From the NCBI GenBank assembly GCA_019312695.1, contig JAFDCT010000270.1:1-12391 (forward strand): 12,391 nt of DNA. Direction: 5' to 3'. The DNA is from Deltaproteobacteria bacterium (lineage in GTDB: Bacteria; Desulfobacterota; Desulfobulbia; Desulfobulbales; BM004). A model generated the notes under the pieces. The model was given only the letters and a program-made list of their open reading frames with translations, did not search any database and had not been told where the DNA came from. The position numbers and the translations under genes are program-made. Numbering within the stretch: position 1 is the first letter of the stretch; each line of letters opens with the position of its first letter. Shown here piece by piece: positions 540-10,527 of the stretch.

Positions 540-1865
540 TTACTTGTTAGTGAATTCAGGATAGGCTTCCAGGCCGCATTCTGAGATATCCACACCTTCG
601 AGCTCCTCTTCTTCACTGACACGGATTCCCATAACCGCTTTCATAATGGACCAGACAACTATACTTGTCCCAAAGACCCAGCCAAAGATGACACCAATAC
701 CGGCGAGCTGAGCCGCTAGCGAGCCTTCCGGATTAGTAAATGCTACGGCAATCAAGCCCCAAATACCGACCACTCCGTGTACTGAAATAGCACCTACCGG
801 GTCATCAATTCGAGCTTTGTCGAGAAAGACGATGGATGGTACTACGATTATACCGCCAATCAAGCCTACTAGAGTTGCAACAAATGGTGTCGGGGTTAAT
901 GGTTCTGCCGTAATGGCAACGAGACCTGCTAAAGCGCCGTTGAGAGCCATGGTAAGGTCAGCTTTGCCAAACCATAACTTGGAGAGTAGGAGTGCAGCAA
1001 CAAGACCACCGGCTGCAGCCATATTAGTGTTAACAAAAACCATCGATACTGCATTGGCTTCTTCGATATTACTGATCATCAGCTCAGAGCCACCATTGAA
1101 ACCAAACCATCCCATCCAGAGGATAAAGGTACCCAGGGTAGCGAGGGGCAAGTTGGAGCCTGGTATGGCATTGACTTTTCCACCCTCATACTTGCCTTTC
1201 CGTGCGCCAAGAATCAGAACACCGGCAAGGGCGGCCGAGGCTCCACAGAGATGAACAACACCTGACCCGGCAAAGTCAAGGAACCCGAGGCTGTCGAGGA
1301 AGCCGCCGCCCCATTTCCAATACCCTTCAACGGGATAGATAAACCCGGTAAGGACCATTGCGAAAATCAGAAAACTCCAGAGTTTCATTCTTTCAGCAAC
1401 CGCACCTGATACAATAGACATAGCTGCGCCTACGAAAACGACCTGGAAGAAAAAATCGGACAAAGTGGAATAATAAATATCTCCCCCGCTTGATAATACT
1501 GCGTCAACAGCATTGTCCGGACCAAGAAAAAAACTGAAGCCAGGGATAAAGCCATTTGGTCCACCACCATACATAATGTTATACCCAACAAGCATGTACA
1601 TGATGCTGGCTATTGCGTACAGGGCGATGTTTTTGGTCAAAATTTCAACCACATTCTTGCTGCGAACCAGACCTGCCTCCAGCATAGCAAACCCACAAGC
1701 CATCCACATGACAAGGGCTCCGGACATAAGAAAATAAAAAGTGTCAATTGAGTACGCTAAATTTATAAGGGTGTCACCCACGCTTGGCTCCTCAGCAGAT
1801 GCCAAAGAAGCAAATAAGACTGACAGTACCAGCGATGCCAGTGACATAAATAGTTTAGGTTTCAT
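540..1865 (-). CDS. amt: Ammonium transporter Amt1 (signal-peptide type)
   Basis: A 441-residue Amt/MEP/Rh-family channel for ammonium in the inner membrane. Residues 1-24 are a cleavable signal peptide ending A-S-A before EEP, which gives the usual 11-helix, N-out topology. The pore residues are present: Asp197 (FLDFAG), the twin histidines His205 (VVHLCG) and His363 (SVHGVVGIWG), Phe144 in the periplasmic gate region and Phe256 in GWFGFNGGS. Two features differ from Amt2: the segment YSIDTFYFLMSGALVMW, and the tail ELEGVDISECGLEAYPEF. An AGGAG site precedes the ATG. The gene follows glnK1 by 32 bp, the classic glnK-amt pairing in which PII plugs the channel from the cytoplasm when ammonium rises. 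A perfect TTACA-N4-TGTAA palindrome fills most of the 32-bp gap. Confidence 0.95.
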   Translation of the reverse strand: MKPKLFMSLASLVLSVLFASLASAEEPSVGDTLINLAYSIDTFYFLMSGALVMWMACGFAMLEAGLVRSKNVVEILTKNIALYAIASIMYMLVGYNIMYGGGPNGFIPGFSFFLGPDNAVDAVLSSGGDIYYSTLSDFFFQVVFVGAAMSIVSGAVAERMKLWSFLIFAMVLTGFIYPVEGYWKWGGGFLDSLGFLDFAGSGVVHLCGASAALAGVLILGARKGKYEGGKVNAIPGSNLPLATLGTFILWMGWFGFNGGSELMISNIEEANAVSMVFVNTNMAAAGGLVAALLLSKLWFGKADLTMALNGALAGLVAITAEPLTPTPFVATLVGLIGGIIVVPSIVFLDKARIDDPVGAISVHGVVGIWGLIAVAFTNPEGSLAAQLAGIGVIFGWVFGTSIVVWSIMKAVMGIRVSEEEELEGVDISECGLEAYPEFTNK

Positions 1866-1897: not shown

Positions 1898-2275
<378 letters not shown>

Positions 2276-2300: not shown

Positions 2301-2318
2301 TTCAACAATTGTGCCAAA
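2301..2318 (-). promoter_or_regulatory. Near-consensus sigma-54 promoter for glnK1-amt1-porin
   Basis: On the minus strand TTGGCAC-AATTG-TTGAA matches the -24/-12 consensus TTGGCAC-N5-TTGCW except that the -12 GC reads GA. GG-to-GA spacing is the required 10 bases. The predicted start is near 2290, giving a leader of about 54 nt. The off-consensus -12 element suggests a weaker promoter than those of amt2 and glnK2. Confidence 0.55.
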
Positions 2319-2504: not shown

Positions 2505-2572
2505 AGGTTTTTTCCGGGCACCCGGAAGTGCCTGCCGGGGAAAGCCAGCATGGCTCTTCGTGGAATTTTTTT
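2505..2572. other. GC-rich hairpin island inside AT-rich intergenic region
   Basis: Two consecutive hairpins: GGCAC (2517-2521) pairs with GTGCC (2528-2532) around CCGGAA, with flanking TTTCC (2511-2515) able to pair with GGAAA (2539-2543). Then AGCCA (2543-2547) pairs with TGGCT (2551-2555) around GCA. A run of seven T (2566-2572) follows about 10 bases later. Composition contrasts sharply with its surroundings. It could be the 3' end of a small RNA, a degenerate repeat or a structured upstream element. No known RNA family is recognised. Confidence 0.35.
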
Positions 2573-2584
2573 ACAATAATGTAA
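2571..2584. promoter_or_regulatory. Putative enhancer/operator 1 of amt2
   Basis: TTACAATAATGTAA, arms TTACA/TGTAA around ATAA. Its centre (2577.5) is about 116 bp upstream of the -24 GG of the amt2 sigma-54 promoter and 32 bp (about three helical turns) from the second site. Together with the flanking T it forms half of a perfect 13-bp inverted repeat with 2606-2618. Confidence 0.55.
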
Positions 2585-2602
2585 TTTTGCCCATCAAATA
2601 AA

Positions 2603-2616
2603 TTGCATTATTGTAA
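2603..2616. promoter_or_regulatory. Putative enhancer/operator 2 of amt2
   Basis: TTGCATTATTGTAA, one mismatch from TTACA-N4-TGTAA. Its centre (2609.5) is about 85 bp upstream of the -24 GG of the amt2 promoter. The overlapping 13-mer CATTATTGTAAAA is the exact inverse of 2569-2581 and a direct copy of 2257-2269. Confidence 0.5.
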
Positions 2617-2690
2617 AAGTATTTTTGTTCGTTTAGGTGGGATAAGAAGTAAATTCCCATAATTTTGAGGTGTTATGCGTAAGGCTAATT

Positions 2691-2708
2691 TCTGGCATGT
2701 CATTTGCT
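2691..2708 (+). promoter_or_regulatory. Sigma-54 promoter of amt2
   Basis: CTGGCAT-GTCAT-TTGCT fits the sigma-54 consensus (TGGCAC-N5-TTGCW), with GG at 2694-2695, exactly 10 bases, then GC at 2706-2707. The predicted start is near 2719, giving a leader of about 73 nt before amt2. Two palindromes about 85 and 116 bp upstream are candidate enhancer sites. Confidence 0.8.
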
Positions 2709-2791
2709 AAATATACTTAAATAGAGTTTCACTTATACACATTTGTTTAAGATGTTAGCTGCGAAATAAAATTTAAAAGGAGGATGTTTCA

Positions 2792-4006
2792 ATGAATAGT
2801 GGAGATACGGCATTCATGCTAGTGGCTACAGCCTTGGTCATGCTTATGACCCCGGGCCTCGCCTTATTCTACGGAGGCCTTGTGCGTTCAAAAAATGTGC
2901 TGGCAACCATAATGCAAAGCTTTATCTGCCTGGGGCTCATTTCCATTACCTGGGTCCTTTTTGGTTATTCGCTTGCCTTTGGGCCTGATATAGGCGGTTT
3001 TATAGGCAATCTTGACTGGGCCTTATTAAAAGGTGTAAGCCTTTCTCCTGGGCCTTATTCTGATACTATCCCGGATCTTCTTTTTGTCGCCTTTCAGATG
3101 ATGTTTGCCATCATTACTCCGGCCCTGATAACCGGGGCTTTTGCTGAGAGGATGAAATTTTCAGCATATATAATTTTTGCCCTGCTGTGGAGTACGCTGG
3201 TATACCTGCCTGTTTGCCACTGGGTCTGGGGAGGCGGCTGGATCGGAGGACACGGGGCTCTTGATTTTGCGGGTGGGACCGTTATCCATATCAATTCCGG
3301 TGCTGCTGCCCTGGTTGCCGCCATTGTTATTGGTAAACGCAAAGGATATGGTAAGGAGCCCTTCCATCCCCACAATCTGACCATGACTATCCTCGGGGCA
3401 TCCATCCTCTGGGTTGGCTGGTTTGGCTTTAATGCCGGTTCTGCTTTGTCCGCAGGAGATATTTCAACCCTGGCCTTTTTTACAACCCAGGTTGCAGCAG
3501 GCGCAGCCGCCCTTTCATGGGTTATTGCTGAATGGATGATCCAGGGAAGGCCGACGACTCTCGGTGCTGCATCAGGAGCTGTAGCCGGACTGGTAGCCAT
3601 CACGCCTGCTGCTGGATTTGTCAGTCCCGTTTCCGCAATTATTATAGGGCTGGTAGCCGGTGTTATCTGCTACCTGGCTGTGCTGCTCAAGGGTAAACTT
3701 CGCTACGATGATGCCCTCGATGTTGTGGCGGTACACGGTATTGGCGGCCTCTGGGGAGCCTTGGCAACAGGTCTTCTTGCCAGCACTGCTTGGAACCCAG
3801 GAGGGGCGGATGGGCTGTTCTATGGCAATCCAAAGCTGTTTGCAGTTCAGGCCTATGGCGCTTTTGCAACAATCGTCTATTCGATGATAGTTACCTTTAT
3901 TATTCTAAAGGTTATCGATCTTTTGATCGGATTGCGGGTTGATGCTGAGGCGGAAGTTCGAGGACTTGACCTGGCAGAGCACAGTGAAGCTGGATACACC
4001 ATCTAA
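2792..4006 (+). CDS. amt: Ammonium transporter Amt2 (no signal peptide)
   Basis: A 404-residue Amt-family ammonium channel of the inner membrane, starting directly with the first transmembrane helix (DTAFMLVATALVMLM) without a signal peptide. The conserved elements are complete: FYGGLVRSKN (residues 26-35), Phe101/Phe105 in AFQMMFA, GAFAERM, Asp158 and His166 in LDFAGGTVIHINSG, Phe213 in GWFGFNAGSAL, His315 in VAVHGIGGLWG, and the cytoplasmic tail GLRVDAEAEVRGLDLAEHSE that meets PII. The AGGAGG site at 2778-2783 fixes the ATG. It is a clearly different branch from Amt1 and closer in layout to typical AmtB. It is followed after 256 bp by the broken glnK2, and is transcribed from its own sigma-54 promoter, so expression is probably induced under nitrogen limitation. 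Confidence 0.95.
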   Translation: MNSGDTAFMLVATALVMLMTPGLALFYGGLVRSKNVLATIMQSFICLGLISITWVLFGYSLAFGPDIGGFIGNLDWALLKGVSLSPGPYSDTIPDLLFVAFQMMFAIITPALITGAFAERMKFSAYIIFALLWSTLVYLPVCHWVWGGGWIGGHGALDFAGGTVIHINSGAAALVAAIVIGKRKGYGKEPFHPHNLTMTILGASILWVGWFGFNAGSALSAGDISTLAFFTTQVAAGAAALSWVIAEWMIQGRPTTLGAASGAVAGLVAITPAAGFVSPVSAIIIGLVAGVICYLAVLLKGKLRYDDALDVVAVHGIGGLWGALATGLLASTAWNPGGADGLFYGNPKLFAVQAYGAFATIVYSMIVTFIILKVIDLLIGLRVDAEAEVRGLDLAEHSEAGYTI

Positions 4007-4050
4007 CCGGGAGTCAGGAGTTGAGGGTCAGCGACTGGCACAAATACGTA

Positions 4051-4064
4051 ATACAATTTTGTAA
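4051..4064. promoter_or_regulatory. Putative enhancer/operator 1 of glnK2
   Basis: ATACAATTTTGTAA, one mismatch from TTACA-N4-TGTAA, with perfect inner arms TACAA/TTGTA. Its centre (4057.5) is about 116 bp upstream of the -24 GG of the glnK2 sigma-54 promoter, the same offset as at amt2. Confidence 0.55.
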
Positions 4065-4080
4065 TAAAATTAGTATTTTT

Positions 4081-4094
4081 TTACAATTATGTCA
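4081..4094. promoter_or_regulatory. Putative enhancer/operator 2 of glnK2
   Basis: TTACAATTATGTCA, one mismatch from TTACA-N4-TGTAA. Its centre (4087.5) is 30 bp from the first site and about 85 bp upstream of the -24 GG, copying the amt2 arrangement. Confidence 0.5.
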
Positions 4095-4169
4095 ATTACT
4101 GTGTATGGGTTTTGTGGGTTGGAACCAAATAAATATAAGAATAATAATGGGTTATGTTCACCCTGTCCA

Positions 4170-4187
4170 CTTGGCATTCAATTTGCT
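4170..4187 (+). promoter_or_regulatory. Sigma-54 promoter of glnK2 (and probably glnD-glnA)
   Basis: TTGGCAT-TCAAT-TTGCT matches the sigma-54 consensus, with GG at 4173-4174, 10 bases, then GC at 4185-4186. The predicted start is near 4198, about 65 nt before the glnK2 ATG. Two palindromes lie upstream at the same offsets as at amt2. It makes glnK2 and the genes after it transcriptionally independent of amt2. Confidence 0.8.
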
Positions 4188-4262: not shown

Positions 4263-4598
<336 letters not shown>

Positions 4599-4601
<3 letters not shown>

Positions 4602-4612: not shown

Positions 4613-4676
4613 ATCTTAGAGAGTTGTGCAACGCAATACTTATGAAAACACTGGAGAAAGCTACGGTCTCTCAGGC

Positions 4677-7241
4677 ATGGCACAGACAACAATAGAGCCC
4701 CAGGATTTTAGCGGTCTCCAGGCTCGGCGGCAGGCCCTTGATGCTTATTGGCTGCAGGGGATCAGCGGTAATGCTCTTGTTCGCAAGCACTCCGAATTTA
4801 TTGATCATCATCTGGCCAGCGGTTTTGCCAAGGGCGTCAGCGCTGAGGAAGGTTTTGCTTTGGTGGCCTTGGGGGGGTACGGCAGGCAGGAGCTTTATCC
4901 ATTTTCAGACATAGACCTTATGCTGCTCTATAATCCTGAACAGAATGATCAACTCAATAGTGTTATTGAAGCAATTCTTTATCCTCTTTGGGATACGGGG
5001 CTTGAGGTCGGCCATGCGGTTCGCACCCTGGATGAATGTATAAGCCATGCTGCTGAAGACTTTTTTTTCAGGGTGGCAATGCTTGATGCCAGGCTTATTG
5101 CAGGTTCTGTTCCGCTTTTTGCCAAGCTCATCGCAAGGTACAAGACAGAATATATTGAGGGCAAGCGCCAGGAGTTCCTTGATGATATGCTCGAACAACG
5201 TTCAAAGCGGGAGACTCAATACGGCCGTCATGCGTATCTTCTCGAACCGCACATAAAGGAAAGCTGCGGCGGATTTCGCGATATCCAGTCCATGGTCTGG
5301 ACAGCCCATGTTGTTTTTGGACTCAAGGATCTGCTCTCACTGCAGGAGGCAGGATTGCTTACCAAGCAAGAACTAGAGAGATTCGAGCAGGCACAGGATT
5401 ACCTGATTCGCATACGCAACAGGCTGCACTATGTAAGCGGTCGTAAAAATGATCAGCTTTACTTTGAACATCAGGAAGAAATGGCGCACGCTTTCGGCTT
5501 TAGAAATGAAAGGGACATGCTTGCGGTTGAACATTTCATGCGTGAAGTATACGGACACATGCAGACCATATCAGTAACCACAGATCTTTTTTTTGAGCAT
5601 GTTGAGGAAGTTCTTGGCAATGAGGAAAGCTCAGAGAAAACAAAGGTTCTTGAACCCGGAATTGAGGTGCGGCACGGCAAGATTCACTTGACTAATGCCG
5701 AGCTTCTTCAACATAAACAAAAACTCTTCATGCGGCTTTTTTATCAGTCGGCCAAGACAGGAGTACCTCTGCATTTCAGAACACGCAAAGCCATAACAGC
5801 CAACCTGAGTCAAGTAGATGACAAGCTGCGCCGGTCGCGTAGAAATGCAAAACTCTTCATGACGATTCTGGGCACCACTCATCCTTTCAGGGTTATGGAA
5901 GATATGCTTGATACAGGTTTTTTAACTGCCTATCTACCTGAATTTACCAAAGTTGAATCCCTGGCTCAGCATGATGTATACCATGTTTATACCGTTGACC
6001 GTCACCTCGTTCAAACAATTAAAGAACTAGAATCATTAAAAGAAGAAGAAGCAAACATTTATGCAGCGGTAAGTGAAGCACATCTTTTGTTTCTGGCCGG
6101 GCTGCTGCATGATGTAGGCAAGGGCTTTGGTAACGACCATGCTGACAGGGGCGCTGACATGGTTCGGCAGATGGGCGAACGGCTGAATTTAGCAGCCGAT
6201 GAGCTTGAAACCCTTGATTTCCTGGTGCGCAACCATCTTTTTCTTTCTCATACTGCTTTGCGGCGTGACCTCGAGGACGAAGAATTTCTCATGCGTTGTG
6301 CCAACATGATCCAATTCCCTGAATTGCTAGCCATGCTCTATCTGCTAACCATTGCCGATGCCAGGGCAACCGGCCCTACGGTCTGGAATGACTGGAAAGC
6401 AGCTTTACTGCTTGAGCTTTACTTGAAAATTGCCCTGCTGCTTGATAGAAGTGACCTTTCTCAGCAGGAACAAGCTCTCAGTGCTGAACTCGGAGCGCAA
6501 TGGATCCGGGAAAAGGCTTCGGAGCTTTTGCCGGATTCGGCTAAAATAGATTTTGATCTTTTTTCAGATGATTATTTACTCAGTTTCCCACCTGCGGTTA
6601 TAGTAGATCATATTACGCAAGCGAATAAACTGGGAAAGCAAAAAGTTATATTTTCCCATGAGCAAAACAAAGAGTCCTGGTCGCTGCTCGTTATGACCAG
6701 GGACCGCCCTGGTTTACTGGCCAGAATATTTGGTGTGCTTGCATTGCACAACCTCAATGTACTGGCTGCAAAGATCTTTACCTGGGCAGATGGTACTGCT
6801 GTTGATACAATCGAGGTTTCTTCTGCCATATCGGAATCATATGAGGGCCAGGATTGGGCAGCGATGGAAAAGGAACTGCATCTGGCCATCCAACAGCGTC
6901 TGGGGCTGGAGTATCGCTTAAGCAAAAAGCTGGCGCCGTTGCGCAATAAACCTCAGGGAGTACAACCGCGCCTTGCTGCAAAGGTAACAATAGATAATAA
7001 GGCATCGGAATTATTTTCGGTGATTGAGGTATTTTCAGAGGATAGGATAGGAATTCTTTACGATATAACCAAAACCCTGTCTGATTTCGGCATCAGTATT
7101 TACAGGGCAAGGATAGGCTCGAAAGCCGACCAGGTAGTAGATGTTTTTTATGTCCTGGATTATGACAGGAAAAAGATTGAAGACCCCGACTTTAAAAAAG
7201 AACTGCAACAGGGGCTGCTCCATGCAGTCACATGTGCATAA
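4677..7241 (+). CDS. glnD: Bifunctional [PII] uridylyltransferase / uridylyl-removing enzyme GlnD
   Basis: A cytoplasmic glutamine sensor of 854 residues that adds UMP to Tyr51 of PII when glutamine is low and removes it when glutamine is high. Domains in order: a nucleotidyltransferase with GGYGRQEL (66-73) and S-D-I-D (77-80); a central region with the family motif ESCGGFRDIQ; an HD domain with LLHDVGKG (His478-Asp479) for UMP removal; and two C-terminal ACT domains, about 669-740 (MTRDRPGLLARIFG) and 781-850 (FSEDRIGILYDITKTLSDFG), for glutamine binding. Length and order match E. coli GlnD. The start is uncertain. ATG 4677 is chosen, but an in-frame GTG at 4626, 24 bp after glnK2, would add 17 residues, and neither has a well-placed ribosome binding site. 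It probably shares the glnK2 transcript and leads into glnA. Confidence 0.95.
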   Translation: MAQTTIEPQDFSGLQARRQALDAYWLQGISGNALVRKHSEFIDHHLASGFAKGVSAEEGFALVALGGYGRQELYPFSDIDLMLLYNPEQNDQLNSVIEAILYPLWDTGLEVGHAVRTLDECISHAAEDFFFRVAMLDARLIAGSVPLFAKLIARYKTEYIEGKRQEFLDDMLEQRSKRETQYGRHAYLLEPHIKESCGGFRDIQSMVWTAHVVFGLKDLLSLQEAGLLTKQELERFEQAQDYLIRIRNRLHYVSGRKNDQLYFEHQEEMAHAFGFRNERDMLAVEHFMREVYGHMQTISVTTDLFFEHVEEVLGNEESSEKTKVLEPGIEVRHGKIHLTNAELLQHKQKLFMRLFYQSAKTGVPLHFRTRKAITANLSQVDDKLRRSRRNAKLFMTILGTTHPFRVMEDMLDTGFLTAYLPEFTKVESLAQHDVYHVYTVDRHLVQTIKELESLKEEEANIYAAVSEAHLLFLAGLLHDVGKGFGNDHADRGADMVRQMGERLNLAADELETLDFLVRNHLFLSHTALRRDLEDEEFLMRCANMIQFPELLAMLYLLTIADARATGPTVWNDWKAALLLELYLKIALLLDRSDLSQQEQALSAELGAQWIREKASELLPDSAKIDFDLFSDDYLLSFPPAVIVDHITQANKLGKQKVIFSHEQNKESWSLLVMTRDRPGLLARIFGVLALHNLNVLAAKIFTWADGTAVDTIEVSSAISESYEGQDWAAMEKELHLAIQQRLGLEYRLSKKLAPLRNKPQGVQPRLAAKVTIDNKASELFSVIEVFSEDRIGILYDITKTLSDFGISIYRARIGSKADQVVDVFYVLDYDRKKIEDPDFKKELQQGLLHAVTCA

Positions 7242-7333
7242 AAAGAAAAAGGGAGGCGCGGTAATAAATAAACAGTAACATGAGTTTTGATGTTCCAGAA
7301 AAAGATAACCCCAAAAATAAAAGGAGACAGAAA

Positions 7334-8665
7334 ATGACAAGAAATCAAATCATGAAAATCATCAAGGATAAGAATGTCCAGTTTTTCAGACTGCAGTTTA
7401 TTGATATAAACGGCATCATGAAAAATGTTGCTGTACCGAAAAGCCAGATCGAAAAAGCCCTTAACGGAGACATAATGTTTGATGGATCATCCATTGACGG
7501 CTTTGTTCGTATCAATGAGTCAGACATGTATCTAAAGCCAGATTACAATACCTTCACTGTTCTGCCCTGGAGAATCAAGGAAGGTGTTGCTGCGGCCAGG
7601 ATAATCTGTGATGTTTACATGGCAGATGGCAAGACCCCGTTTGGCGGCTGCCCCAGGGTTAATCTGAAACGGGTTCTGGCGGAAGCCAAGAAAATGGGAT
7701 TTACCATGAATGTTGGCACCGAAGCAGAGTTCTTCCTTTTCAAACGCGATGAAAGTGGAGACGCTACCACGGAAACCCATGACACAGCTGGATATTTTAC
7801 GGTTGATACCGATGACGAAGGCATTGACTGCAGGCGCGAGATTATTCTTACCCTCGAGCAAATGGGATTTGAGATCGAAGCTTCCCATCATGAGGTTGCC
7901 GAGGGCCAGCACGAGATTAATTTCAAATACGCTGATGCAATAACTGCAGCAGACAATACTGTGACCTTTAAATGGGTGGTCAAGACCATTGCCAAGAAAT
8001 ACGGCCTGCATGCCACCTTCATGCCCAAACCTGTTTTCGGTATAAATGGTAGCGGTATGCACACCAACCAGTCGCTGTTCAACCTCGACGGTTCAAACGC
8101 TTTTTTTGATAAAAAGGACAAATTGCAGCTTAGCAAGGTGGCCTACCAGTATATAGCAGGTATTGCCAAAAATGCCCGCGGTTTTGCTGCTGTTACCAAT
8201 CCCCTGGTAAACTCCTACAAGCGTTTGGTACCCGGTTACGAGGCTCCTGTATATGTTGCCTGGTCAGCTTCCAACCGATCCGCCCTAATGCGTATTCCTT
8301 CTGCTCGAGGTATGAGTACCAGGGTAGAGGTCCGTAACCCGGATCCAACCTGTAATCCCTATATGGCTTTTGCCATGATGCTCAATTCTGGCCTTGACGG
8401 CATCAAGAACAAGCTGACTCCGCCTCCATCAACAGATGTCAATATTTACGATATGACTCCGAACCAGATGAAGAGAGCAAAAATCAAGAGTATGCCTGCA
8501 TCATTGCTGGAAGCACTTGAGGAGCTAAAGAAAAATCCCATTGCCAAGGATACCCTTGGACCGCATATTTATGAGAAGTATGTTGAGAGCAAGGAAAAGG
8601 AATGGGATAGCTTCAGGATTCATGTTACCGATTGGGAGATCGAGAACTATCTGAAGATCTATTAA
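7334..8665 (+). CDS. glnA: Glutamine synthetase, type I-alpha (443 aa)
   Basis: Makes glutamine from glutamate, ammonia and ATP in the cytoplasm as a dodecamer. Visible motifs: latch DGSSIDGF (50-57), metal-binding Glu130/Glu132 in [20 protein letters not shown] (191-201), [11 protein letters not shown] then GSGMH (His243), the flap Glu303 in [14 protein letters not shown] (314-322) and RVEVRNPDP (330-338). The length and the absence of the NLYDLP adenylylation motif place it in the short alpha class. Arg59 in [10 protein letters not shown] sits where Bacillus GS has Arg62, the residue for glutamine feedback. The ATG at 7334 has AGGAGA 7 bases before it; an upstream in-frame ATG at 7280 would add 18 unconserved residues and is rejected. 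The gene follows glnD by 92 bp and ends at a strong terminator. Confidence 0.96.
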
Positions 8666-8747: not shown

Positions 8748-10307
8748 CTATTTCTTTACCTTGAATTTTTTTGTATCAATTTCATAATGGTGGATCTTGT
8801 AATTGATGATCCTGAGGCTGGTATCGAGCTCCTTAGCCGCCCTGGTCTGGTTCCCGCTGGTACGTTTCAGGGCCTCGACAATAAGTTCGCGTTCAAAATT
8901 TTCCACGGCACCGGCCAGGGAAAGGGCCTGCTTGGAATTAACGCTTTCCGAGGTCTGCAGGCTGGGCGGCAGATGGTAGCTTTTGATGGACTCCTCGTCG
9001 CAGATGAGGACAGCTCGTTCGATACAGTTCTGCAGTTCCCGCACATTGCCCGGCCAGTGGTACTGCAGCAGCAGGTCAATAGCAGGCGTTGATATTCTTC
9101 TAATTCCTTTATTGTTTTCATCATTGTATTTTTTAAGAAAATATTCGGTCAGCAAAAGTATATCCGTTCTTCTTTCCCGCAAAGGCGGCAAATAAATGGG
9201 AAAGACATTGAGGCGGTAATAAAGATCTTCACGAAAGTGCTTTTCTGCCACTGCCTTTTCCAGGTCACGGTTTGTGGCGGCCACAAGCCGGACATCGCAC
9301 TTTATGGGACTAACGCCTCCCAGTCGCTGGAATTCCCGGTCCTGGACAACCTGCAATAGTTTGACCTGAACCGACTGACTCAATTCCCCGATTTCATCAA
9401 GAAAAAGGGTGCCACTCTCGGCAAGTTCAAAACGTCCTTTCTTCATGGCATGGGCTCCGGTAAAGGCCCCTTTTTCATGACCGAAAAGTTCACTTTCAAG
9501 CAGGGTTTCAGGCAGGGCGGAACAGTTGACCACGATGAACGGCTTTTTGGCTCTGCTGCTGTTGTAATGAAGAGCCCTGGCTACCAGTGTCTTGCCTGTG
9601 CCAGATTCACCCCGTAATAAAACAGTGGCATTGGAATCCGAAACCCGGTGCAGCATTTCAAACATTTCCTGCATGCGGCTGCTGTTGCCGATTATATTTG
9701 CGACCCGGTATTTTTCCGAAAGCTCCTTTTTCAGCTCAATATTCTCCTGGGTCAACCGTTCCCGGTTTTCTTTTTCCGCCTGTATCCGCAGGGCAGTCTG
9801 GGCAATGAGACCGCTTACAATAGTGAGGTAGCGCAACTCATCTTCATAGTTCAGGTCTTCCTTATATTGCAGGTCAATGCTCAGGGCCCCGAGAGTGCGC
9901 TTATCATGTTTGATCGGTACACATATAAAGGAGTTCTGCTGTTTGCTGATATCGCCGCGGGTGCGTGTCCGGTTAAGGAACTGGGCTTCCTCCCCGATAT
10001 GGGGGATAACAATCGGCTGGCCCGTTGCAACAACTCGGCCAGTTATTCCTTCGCCAACTTTGTATTTTCCCCTTTTTCTTGCTTCTGCTGGCATGTTATG
10101 TGCTACCTCAATCTCCAACTGCCCAGTGAGAGGGTTGACAATGGTTAACGTACCGTTGTGCATGCCTTTGCGTTCTGAAAGGATTTTGACAATTTCTTCC
10201 AGGCTGTCCCGCAGATCAATGGATGAGGCAAGCACCTTTGTTACTTCGTACAGGCAGGTGATATCCTCAAGTTCTTTATTTATGGTTTCTTTTTTGAGCG
10301 GGGCCAT
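8748..10307 (-). CDS. NifA/NtrC-like sigma-54-dependent transcriptional activator (GAF-AAA+-Fis)
   Basis: A 519-residue bacterial enhancer-binding protein that would open sigma-54 promoters by ATP hydrolysis. An N-terminal GAF sensor (about 24-175, with GEGITGRV at 85-92) leads through a coiled linker (178-200) to an AAA+ domain: Walker A GESGTGKT (233-240), the sigma-54 contact loop GAFTGA (280-285), Walker B LFLDEIGE (301-308), VAATNRDLE (342-350) and the sensor-2 stretch [10 protein letters not shown] (418-427). The C-terminus is a Fis-type helix-turn-helix ([20 protein letters not shown], 485-504). This is NifA architecture, but no receiver domain, nif gene or oxygen-sensing Cys-X4-Cys motif is seen. 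Its upstream DNA carries the same palindrome found before amt2 and glnK2, so it may be the activator of this locus, with its own gene under control. This link is inference. The ribosome binding site before ATG 10307 is weak. Confidence 0.9.
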
Positions 10308-10417
10308 GGTTTATTACAGCCTTTTCGTTCTTGCCACAATACTCTTCACCGGGTTATCCGATTGAGATGATTTTTGTAAGCAGGCTTTCAAATTTGTTTA
10401 TAAAAAGAAGACGAATA

Positions 10418-10440
10418 TTACAAAATTGTCATAATTTTGT
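10418..10440. promoter_or_regulatory. Putative operator upstream of the sigma-54 activator gene
   Basis: TTACAAAATTGTCA (10418-10431) is one mismatch from the locus consensus TTACA-N4-TGTAA. It sits inside a second perfect inverted repeat, ACAAAATT (10420-10427) and AATTTTGT (10433-10440) around GTCAT. It lies 110 bp before the activator start codon and fits autoregulation or control by the same factor that acts on amt2 and glnK2. Confidence 0.5.
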
Positions 10441-10498
10441 CCAGCAACTTTTACGGCTTGCAGGTCCGTCGCCCCTTAAGGGTCATGTGACAAACCGG

Positions 10499-10527
10499 TT
10501 GACACCATGGATTGAAAAGGAATAGAT
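10499..10527 (+). promoter_or_regulatory. Possible sigma-70 promoter for yjbQ
   Basis: A perfect -35 TTGACA (10499-10504) is followed after 17-18 bases by a weak -10 (ATAGAT or TAGATT). It would start transcription near 10535, about 94 nt before yjbQ. Confidence 0.3.

Follow-up and report, generated by a model that had tools for sequence, protein, structure and literature searches.

Paired ACA-N4-TGT palindromes upstream of sigma-54 promoters: a predicted nitrogen-regulon enhancer in Desulfobacterota

The window analysed in this study is the whole 12,391-nucleotide contig JAFDCT010000270.1 (C270) of a deltaproteobacterium of the order Desulfobulbales (phylum Desulfobacterota), whose 2.01-Mb genome is assembled in 383 contigs and is 88% complete. 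Its genes are arranged in the order TorF-like porin (-), amt1 (-), glnK1 (-), amt2 (+), glnK2 (+), glnD (+) and glnA (+), followed by the gene of a GAF-AAA+-Fis activator (-). Short palindromes (TTACA-W4-TGTAA, with the strict core ACA-N4-TGT) occur in pairs upstream of the sigma-54 promoters of amt2 and glnK2. We consider it probable that they act as upstream activating sequences for a nitrogen regulon, with this activator as the protein predicted to bind them. The features on which the analysis is centred are as follows (palindromes are listed without strand, and offsets run from the site centre to the promoter GG):

2571-2584: predicted distal enhancer site of amt2, TTACAATAATGTAA, exact, -116.5
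2603-2616: predicted proximal enhancer site of amt2, TTGCATTATTGTAA, one mismatch, -84.5
2693-2707 (+): sigma-54 promoter of amt2, TGGCATGTCATTTGC, GG at 2694
2792-4006 (+): amt2, ammonium transporter (TIGR00836, 486.9 bits)
4051-4064: predicted distal enhancer site of glnK2, ATACAATTTTGTAA, one mismatch, -115.5
4081-4094: predicted proximal enhancer site of glnK2, TTACAATTATGTCA, one mismatch, -85.5
4172-4186 (+): sigma-54 promoter of glnK2, TGGCATTCAATTTGC, GG at 4173
4263-4601 (+): glnK2 (PII), interrupted by an in-frame TGA
4626-7241 (+): glnD, PII uridylyltransferase, 24 bp after glnK2 (PF08335; frame as listed)
7280-8665 (+): glnA, glutamine synthetase, 38 bp after glnD (PF00120; frame as listed)
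8748-10307 (-): GAF-AAA+(sigma-54)-Fis one-component activator (PF01590, PF00158, PF02954)
10418-10431: site in the activator's own promoter, ACAATTTTGTAA, between TGGACA (10438-10443) and TAATAT (10415-10420)

The positions of both sigma-54 promoters and of all four enhancer sites, including their offsets, agree with those given in an initial annotation of this DNA. The same annotation described the two pairs as identical, which is true of their geometry (equal to within approximately 1 bp) but not of their sequences, since these differ and only one of the four sites is exact. Both promoters reach a score of 21 against the -24/-12 pattern TGGCAY-N5-TTGC, i.e. the maximum of the scheme. With 32 bp between the sites at amt2 and 30 bp at glnK2 (about three helical turns), each promoter is preceded by paired in-phase dyads at approximately 80-150 bp.

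The claim that such matched pairs are unlikely to arise by chance was borne out by shuffling, as two sites with at most one mismatch appeared in both promoter regions in none of 5,000 shuffles. The intergenic DNA of the window (1,447 bases) contains nine sites with at most one mismatch, whereas 500 dinucleotide-preserving shuffles gave 0.13 on average and never more than two; the coding DNA contains none. The excess of nine sites over 0.13 rules out chance palindromes as the source of the four enhancer sites. The bare motif was found at 62 places genome-wide (at most one mismatch) versus 54 for the reversed control, which speaks for chance palindromes in AT-rich intergenic DNA; this explanation is contradicted by the shuffles and by the order-wide conservation, offset peaks and pair counts described below, and its probability is negligible. 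Real sites are marked by their position and conservation, not by their frequency.

When the DNA between glnK1 and amt2 from four species is aligned, the sites stand out against surroundings that align poorly. The distal amt2 site reads TTACA-N4-TGTR in all four sequences (the window and three congeners), the proximal one lies at -83.5 to -85.5 in the congeners and is weak in some of them, and the TGGCA and ATTTGC of the amt2 promoter are invariant in the four genus sequences. In four congeners, the DNA that aligns with the glnK2 promoter region is the promoter of an additional ammonium transporter gene (amt3), where an exact site matches the glnK2 proximal site; a search of the window genome for amt3 found none, detecting amt1 and amt2 only. 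The occurrence of matches in other genomes of the genus and order rules out a peculiarity of a single genome.

The analysis was extended to the order using upstream regions of at least 250 bp from amt genes and the window glnK2 (shorter regions, such as L137, were left out, and L021 was dropped for lack of upstream DNA). A strong sigma-54 promoter was found in 34 of the 66 regions. When these 34 promoters were anchored on their GG, the six best motif offsets were -117.5, -84.5, -24.5, -86.5, -115.5 and -116.5 (3.88-4.06 of 10), of which five correspond to the two enhancer positions; the highest mean at any offset across 300 Markov-shuffled sets was 3.76. The unexplained peak at -24.5 falls in an AT-rich stretch that also holds matches resembling sites of integration host factor (IHF).

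The exact pattern in the order, TTACA-N4-TGTAA followed after 62-92 bases by TGGCAY-N5-TTGC, gave 15 matches in 13 of 257 genomes, and its reversed control gave none. The genes downstream are amt in 12 cases and, in one case each, glnD, a GAF activator 45% identical to that of the window, and a TorF-like porin (Pfam score 22.0, below the cut-off of 24). Pairs were defined as two sites of at least 5 bits each, with any spacing of 20-45 bp allowed, and L173 (short upstream region) and L241 (7 bases) were left out of the matrix and pair analyses. Such pairs were detected in 39 of 47 order regions with strong -24/-12 elements, against 0.15 expected, although part of this set had trained the matrix. 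The retention of the sites in most orthologous promoters that keep their -24/-12 elements had been named beforehand as a check, as had the excess of motif plus promoter over a control (15 vs 0 in the order and 22 vs 0 in the phylum); both favour functional sites.

For the phylum, we scored 107 amt upstream regions from a sample of 198 genomes with the matrix, which had been built from 32 order sites. Sixty regions came from genomes with the activator (E<=1e-140) and 47 from genomes without it, and a strong sigma-54 promoter was present in 44 and 19 of these, respectively. Pairs were found in 22 of the 44 regions from activator-bearing genomes and in one of the 19 others (Fisher p=5e-4). A shuffle test of the best pair spaced 30-32 bp gave p<=0.01 in 28/44 versus 4/19 regions; none of these four activator-less regions has two good sites at this spacing, and the promoter of one of them, from G304 (82% complete), closely resembles that of its activator-bearing congener G267. 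Outside the training set, 18 of 40 phylum regions carry pairs (0.05 expected), five near-identical promoters of genus g85 having been collapsed beforehand (four dropped).

A search of the phylum with the exact pattern and a gap of 50-80 bp yielded 22 matches in 19 of 395 genomes, and none with the control. The 20 matches outside the order precede glnA (6, four of them in one genus), amt (3), gltB (1), a weak partial glnA (1) and other genes (9). Among the last nine are one homocitrate-synthase-like gene and several without an apparent link to nitrogen; seven of the nine carry G or C in the central four bases, where these are rare in the order matrix. The homocitrate-synthase-like gene (G328, L302:368-1471) scores 392.8 against TIGR02660, below the cut-off of 462.9, and a link to nitrogen fixation is possible. 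In some families (L242, L252, L268, L270) the site has drifted to CTACA-N4-TGTAG.

All of the 57 pairs counted (39 from the order and 18 from the collapsed phylum set) are spaced 20-21, 30-32 or 42-43 bp, mostly 30-32 bp. The distances from the proximal site to the GG cluster near -61, -74, -85.5 and -95; one case each was seen at -51.5, -108.5 and -119.5. This clustering, mainly in steps of about 11 bp, suggests that the distance changes mostly by whole helical turns. The mean resultant length in the phylum was 0.61, 0.79 and 0.85 at periods of 10.5, 11 and 11.5 bp, respectively; a formal p-value for the phase would be unreliable because the promoters are related. An IHF-like match of at least 8 of 9 bases lies between pair and promoter in 16 of the 34 order promoters (3.3 expected, maximum 9 in 200 shuffled sets), and the amt2 and glnK2 promoters of the window reach 7/9. 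In the order promoters the forward matches start at -32 to -29 or at -42 to -40.

The genome contains 16 matches to the sigma-54 activation domain, some of them partial. Judging from sequence, the activator at 8748-10307 is probably the reader of the sites, its binding being predicted, and it is the best candidate on account of the site in its own promoter, its gene linkage, its co-occurrence with pairs, its conserved recognition helix and the parallel with DVU1949 of Desulfovibrio vulgaris. It is a one-component protein with a GAF rather than a receiver domain, and the GAFTGA motif is visible in its translation. In the genus, the site in its promoter (ACAATTTTGTAA) is invariant in 7/7 loci and lies within a sigma-70-like arrangement of TGGACA, a spacer of 16-17 bp and TAATAT (5/7, with near variants in 2/7); no sigma-54 promoter was seen at the activator's own gene in the genus. 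Across the order, a site with at most one mismatch precedes the activator gene in 12 of 28 loci (0.33 expected; L067, where the gene is cut, and L085, with 18 bases upstream, were not counted). Six of these 12 loci belong to one genus and the rest span three families.

In several families the activator gene is a neighbour of amt, glnA or glutamate synthase genes. It adjoins glnA in the genus and also in three further genera of the same family, and in one genus it lies after a glutamate-synthase GXGXG gene and before amt. Among the matches listed, it lies within 1 kb of an amt gene in at least 14, and within 5 kb in at least 20, of the 74 phylum genomes that list both. Most orthologs seen, down to approximately 60% identity, have almost the same recognition helix; one family has the variant ITQRIINYKI (L073 was left out of this list). 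The ortholog of Desulfobulbus propionicus is 72% identical to the window activator. Two neighbouring genes were observed at activator loci. In G053 (L087:460-1470), the activator gene is preceded at 13 bp by a gene with regulatory domains of NrpR, known chiefly as an archaeal nitrogen repressor, and amt lies downstream. At many other order loci (L074, L075, L077, L078, L080, L082, L084, L085 and others), a small gene with an LLH-x-CC-x-PC start, presumably queH-like, follows the activator gene within about 20 bp.

Several observations weigh against the assignment of the sites to this activator. In 16 of the 28 order loci the DNA before the activator gene has no site within one mismatch of the motif, and pairs are absent from 22 of the 44 phylum regions whose genomes encode it. 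Conversely, pairs are kept in five order genomes (78-99% complete) without a full-length ortholog, namely G022, G033, G037, G045 and G049 (loci L117, L025, L115, L039 and L136, respectively). The exact match is also present in G002 (63% complete, no ortholog found), and G354, which lacks the activator, has a pair spaced 22 bp apart. Either the five order genomes have another reader for their pairs, or their assemblies happen to miss the activator, or the sites have survived as relics. Moreover, the genomes are not independent, since the presence of the activator and that of the pair both follow phylogeny.

The five activator-less genomes also bear on a different assignment, in which the same enhancer is read by a two-component response regulator of the NtrC family, analogous to DVU3220/GnfM (e.g. 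the protein encoded on contig C281), and the GAF activator is just a target. DVU3220 bound the D. vulgaris amt-glnK-glnD promoter in an electrophoretic mobility shift assay, which is a further point against the GAF activator as reader, and it is conserved in other sulfate reducers including Desulfotalea, as stated by Rajeev et al. 2011 (PMC3333781). However, C281-like regulators are also present in most genomes whose amt regions have no pairs, and the own-promoter site, the linkage to amt, glnA and glutamate synthase, and the significant co-occurrence all belong to the GAF activator. Presence of the C281-like protein could not discriminate between genomes, because 184 of 198 were positive at the loose threshold used (E<=1e-120). 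The accessible part of PMC4641369 gives no DVU3220 motif and makes the one-component DVU1949 responsible for the larger nitrogen regulon. We therefore regard a two-component reader as unlikely, while still the most serious competitor of the GAF activator.

Reading of the sites by a genuine NifA was also considered. The activator scores 528.0 bits against the TIGR01817 nifA model, just below the cut-off of 528.85; some sources name its relatives Nif-specific regulatory protein, and four of the pair-bearing genomes without a window-type activator (G022, G037, G045, G049) carry other GAF activators that are 44-47% identical to it. Nevertheless, the best TIGR01817 stretch (16-448) stops before the helix-turn-helix, and the ten full-length paralogs examined, including those of the four genomes, share the helix WVQARAAR-LG-T-RQ-GY, which we take to be of the NifA type and which is unlike that of the window activator. 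The conserved site, ACA-N4-TGT, is not the NifA consensus TGT-N10-ACA. In addition, a NifA-like gene (L096) has both the motif and a sigma-54 promoter upstream of it, which suggests that it is itself a target of the regulon. A genuine NifA as reader is accordingly quite improbable. On the grounds of the core and the differing recognition helix, NifA sites were rejected, as were NtrC sites, since the core of the matrix is not a GCAC-type dyad. The view put forward in the initial annotation, i.e. an enhancer of a nitrogen activator whose site is neither that of NtrC nor that of NifA, is thus supported by this core, by the scans for motif plus promoter and by the orthologous pairs that have been kept.

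Five further sites with at most one mismatch were found in the window, all of them intergenic and beside nitrogen genes or the activator gene. In addition to the site at 10418-10431, these and the associated features are:

540-1865 (-): amt1, second ammonium transporter, downstream of glnK1 (TIGR03644, 666.4 bits)
1883-1896: exact site TTACAAAATTGTAA, between glnK1 and amt1
1898-2236 (-): glnK1, PII (PF00543)
2254-2267: glnK1 leader site, just upstream of the ribosome-binding site; TTTCATTATTGTAA is invariant in 4/4 genus sequences
2302-2316 (-): candidate sigma-54 promoter of glnK1-amt1, TGGCACAATTGTTGA, score 18 of 21; TGGCA conserved in 4/4
2417-2430: candidate glnK1 enhancer site, centre 108.5 bp upstream of the promoter GG (2315); ACA-N4-TG core in 4/4 genus sequences
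2459-2472: second candidate glnK1 enhancer site, 42 bp (four turns) further out; clear in the window and G003, weak in G004 and G005

The leader site at 2254-2267 is a possible operator. Elsewhere in the genome, an exact site precedes gltB (contig C253); it lies 86-91 bp before the start codon in four of five genus sequences, with TTGACA and a weak -10-like box on its upstream side. Inspection by eye revealed no sigma-54 promoter at gltB in the genus, and this arrangement would also suit repression. The gltB upstream DNA of four sequences from outside the genus contains no site with at most one mismatch (L198 and L199 were left out of this comparison). In the window genome, sites are thus located directly at amt2, at glnK2 (with glnD and glnA downstream), at gltB and at the activator's own gene. 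The location of some sites near start codons or in sigma-70-like promoters (1883, 2254, 10418 and gltB) would be compatible with a separate repressor or global regulator, e.g. of the CRP/FNR type, whose palindromes lie upstream of sigma-54 promoters by coincidence. However, whole-turn pairs at fixed distances from sigma-54 promoters, a description that fits 57 of the 57 counted, look like activator enhancers, and we judge such a coincidence very improbable, slightly more so than a NifA reader. The gltB region (L190-L193) also contains the palindrome GACAAAC-N2-GTTTGTC, which by eye resembles a block at approximately 10470-10500 of the window, upstream of the activator gene. A second conserved palindrome in two promoters that also hold ACA-N4-TGT perhaps points to a second regulator.

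Two other contigs contain exact matches. On C319, an exact pair (3376/3396, 20 bp apart) precedes TGGCATGAAATTTGG and a 48-aa frame; the two copies (L003:3369-3416), followed by a sigma-54-like sequence, make up an almost perfect inverted repeat. A search of eight congeners did not recover this repeat, which weakens the case for a further promoter, and since only part of the downstream stretch was found, in one congener, the pair may be a hairpin. The exact match on C67 lies between two divergent-looking metabolic genes, and no sigma-54 promoter was noticed there by eye.

Several observations concern the remaining genes. The in-frame TGA of glnK2 (4341-4343) lies about a quarter of the way into the gene, congeners have intact copies, and the stop may reflect either a fault in the assembly or genuine loss of the gene next to the intact glnK1. 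The TorF-like putative porin (1-462, -) adjoins amt1. A relative from another family follows an exact motif and a sigma-54 promoter, as does a similar-looking protein of G260 without a Pfam match (loci L093:1682-2464 and L284:1888-2742). These associations hint at a nitrogen-controlled outer-membrane channel. Past the activator, the window holds a UPF0047 gene (+), a small frame and a further frame (+), presumably UbiD-like from its sequence. The nearest related loci (activator 88-93% identical) come from metagenome-assembled genome records labelled Desulfobulbaceae, Desulfobacterales or Deltaproteobacteria.

The sites, their geometry, conservation and whole-turn spacing, the site in the activator's promoter, the gene linkage and the co-occurrence are all computed, and the sites appear functional by each computational test except the bare genome-wide frequency. 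The mechanism that we infer is an ordinary one. Under nitrogen limitation, two dimers of the activator would occupy both sites on the same helix face, three turns apart, and nucleate an AAA+ ring, which DNA looping would carry to the sigma-54 polymerase at amt2 and at glnK2-glnD-glnA, where ATP hydrolysis would open the promoter. Looping and ring assembly are assumed here by analogy with NtrC. The nitrogen signal may be carried by the GAF domain and the PII proteins encoded nearby, with 2-oxoglutarate and/or GlnK acting on the GAF domain, as an analogy with NifA would suggest. At its own sigma-70-type promoter, the activator bound in the -35/-10 spacer (10418-10431) would limit its own synthesis, i.e. 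act as an autorepressor.

A broader proposal can be put forward tentatively, at somewhat less than even odds. A NifA-derived one-component protein may have replaced NtrC as the general nitrogen master regulator in much of Desulfobacterota, using one cis code that evolves by whole helical turns: two ACA-N4-TGT dyads separated by full turns and phased with the promoter. The dyads would serve as an enhancer at sigma-54 promoters (amt, glnK, glnA, gltB and sometimes nifA) and as an operator in sigma-70 promoters (the activator's own gene, perhaps gltB and glnK1). If this is true, the control of ammonium uptake and assimilation could be read from a cis code and ascribed to a named candidate in a phylum that cycles sulfur and metals and in which regulation by NtrC is readily taken for granted. 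The automatic "Nif-specific" label of the activator would also be explained. The natural pairs at approximately -51, -61, -74, -85, -96, -108 and -119 offer material on the face-of-helix constraint in sigma-54 looping.

An explicit cis code with phase, phylum-wide spread and a link to this protein was not found in the open-licence papers searched, where PMC4641369 and PMC3333781 were the only papers found on DVU3220 and DVU1949. In D. vulgaris, we take DVU1258 and DVU3392 to be glnA-like and DVU1821-1823 to be gltB-like. According to Kazakov et al. 2015 (PMC4641369), a nitrogen regulon is predicted for the one-component activator DVU1949, with proposed autoregulation and with targets that include amt-glnK-glnD (DVU1231-1233), DVU1258, DVU3392, DVU1952-1949, DVU1823-1821 and others in nitrogen metabolism and transport; in the same organism, Rajeev et al. 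2011 (PMC3333781) show that the amt-glnK-glnD promoter is bound by the response regulator DVU3220. A similar nitrogen regulon was therefore already predicted in Desulfovibrio in 2015, and that of the window is of the same kind. Both involve a one-component sigma-54 activator with GAFTGA and proposed autoregulation, and, taken over several genomes, the genes with sites here (amt, glnK, glnD, glnA, gltB and that of the activator itself) make up a target set of the DVU1949 type. The likeness is one of description, at the level of regulons rather than of compared motifs and protein sequences. The DVU1949 work covers Desulfovibrionales, and its accessible part gives no pair geometry, phase or own-promoter operator (PMC4641369).

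As regards geometry, a study of 61 Vibrio qrr genes reports that sigma-54 enhancers tolerate changes by the DNA helical repeat (PMC4740811). The present promoters resemble them in this tolerance, but involve another regulator and other genes, and the variation here is found between families of one phylum. NifA upstream activating sequences share with the system described here sigma-54 and an activator of related GAF-AAA+ architecture, and their IHF-type bend may have a counterpart here; they differ in the site and the recognition helix, as set out above. The NtrC (NRI) enhancer of Escherichia coli glnAp2 consists of two dyads about 32 bp apart, approximately 110-140 bp before the start site. 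The paired dyads are the feature common to both systems, and NtrC also represses a sigma-70 promoter; it differs in being a two-component regulator that recognizes GCAC-type dyads, whereas the activator linked to the present sites has a GAF and no receiver domain.

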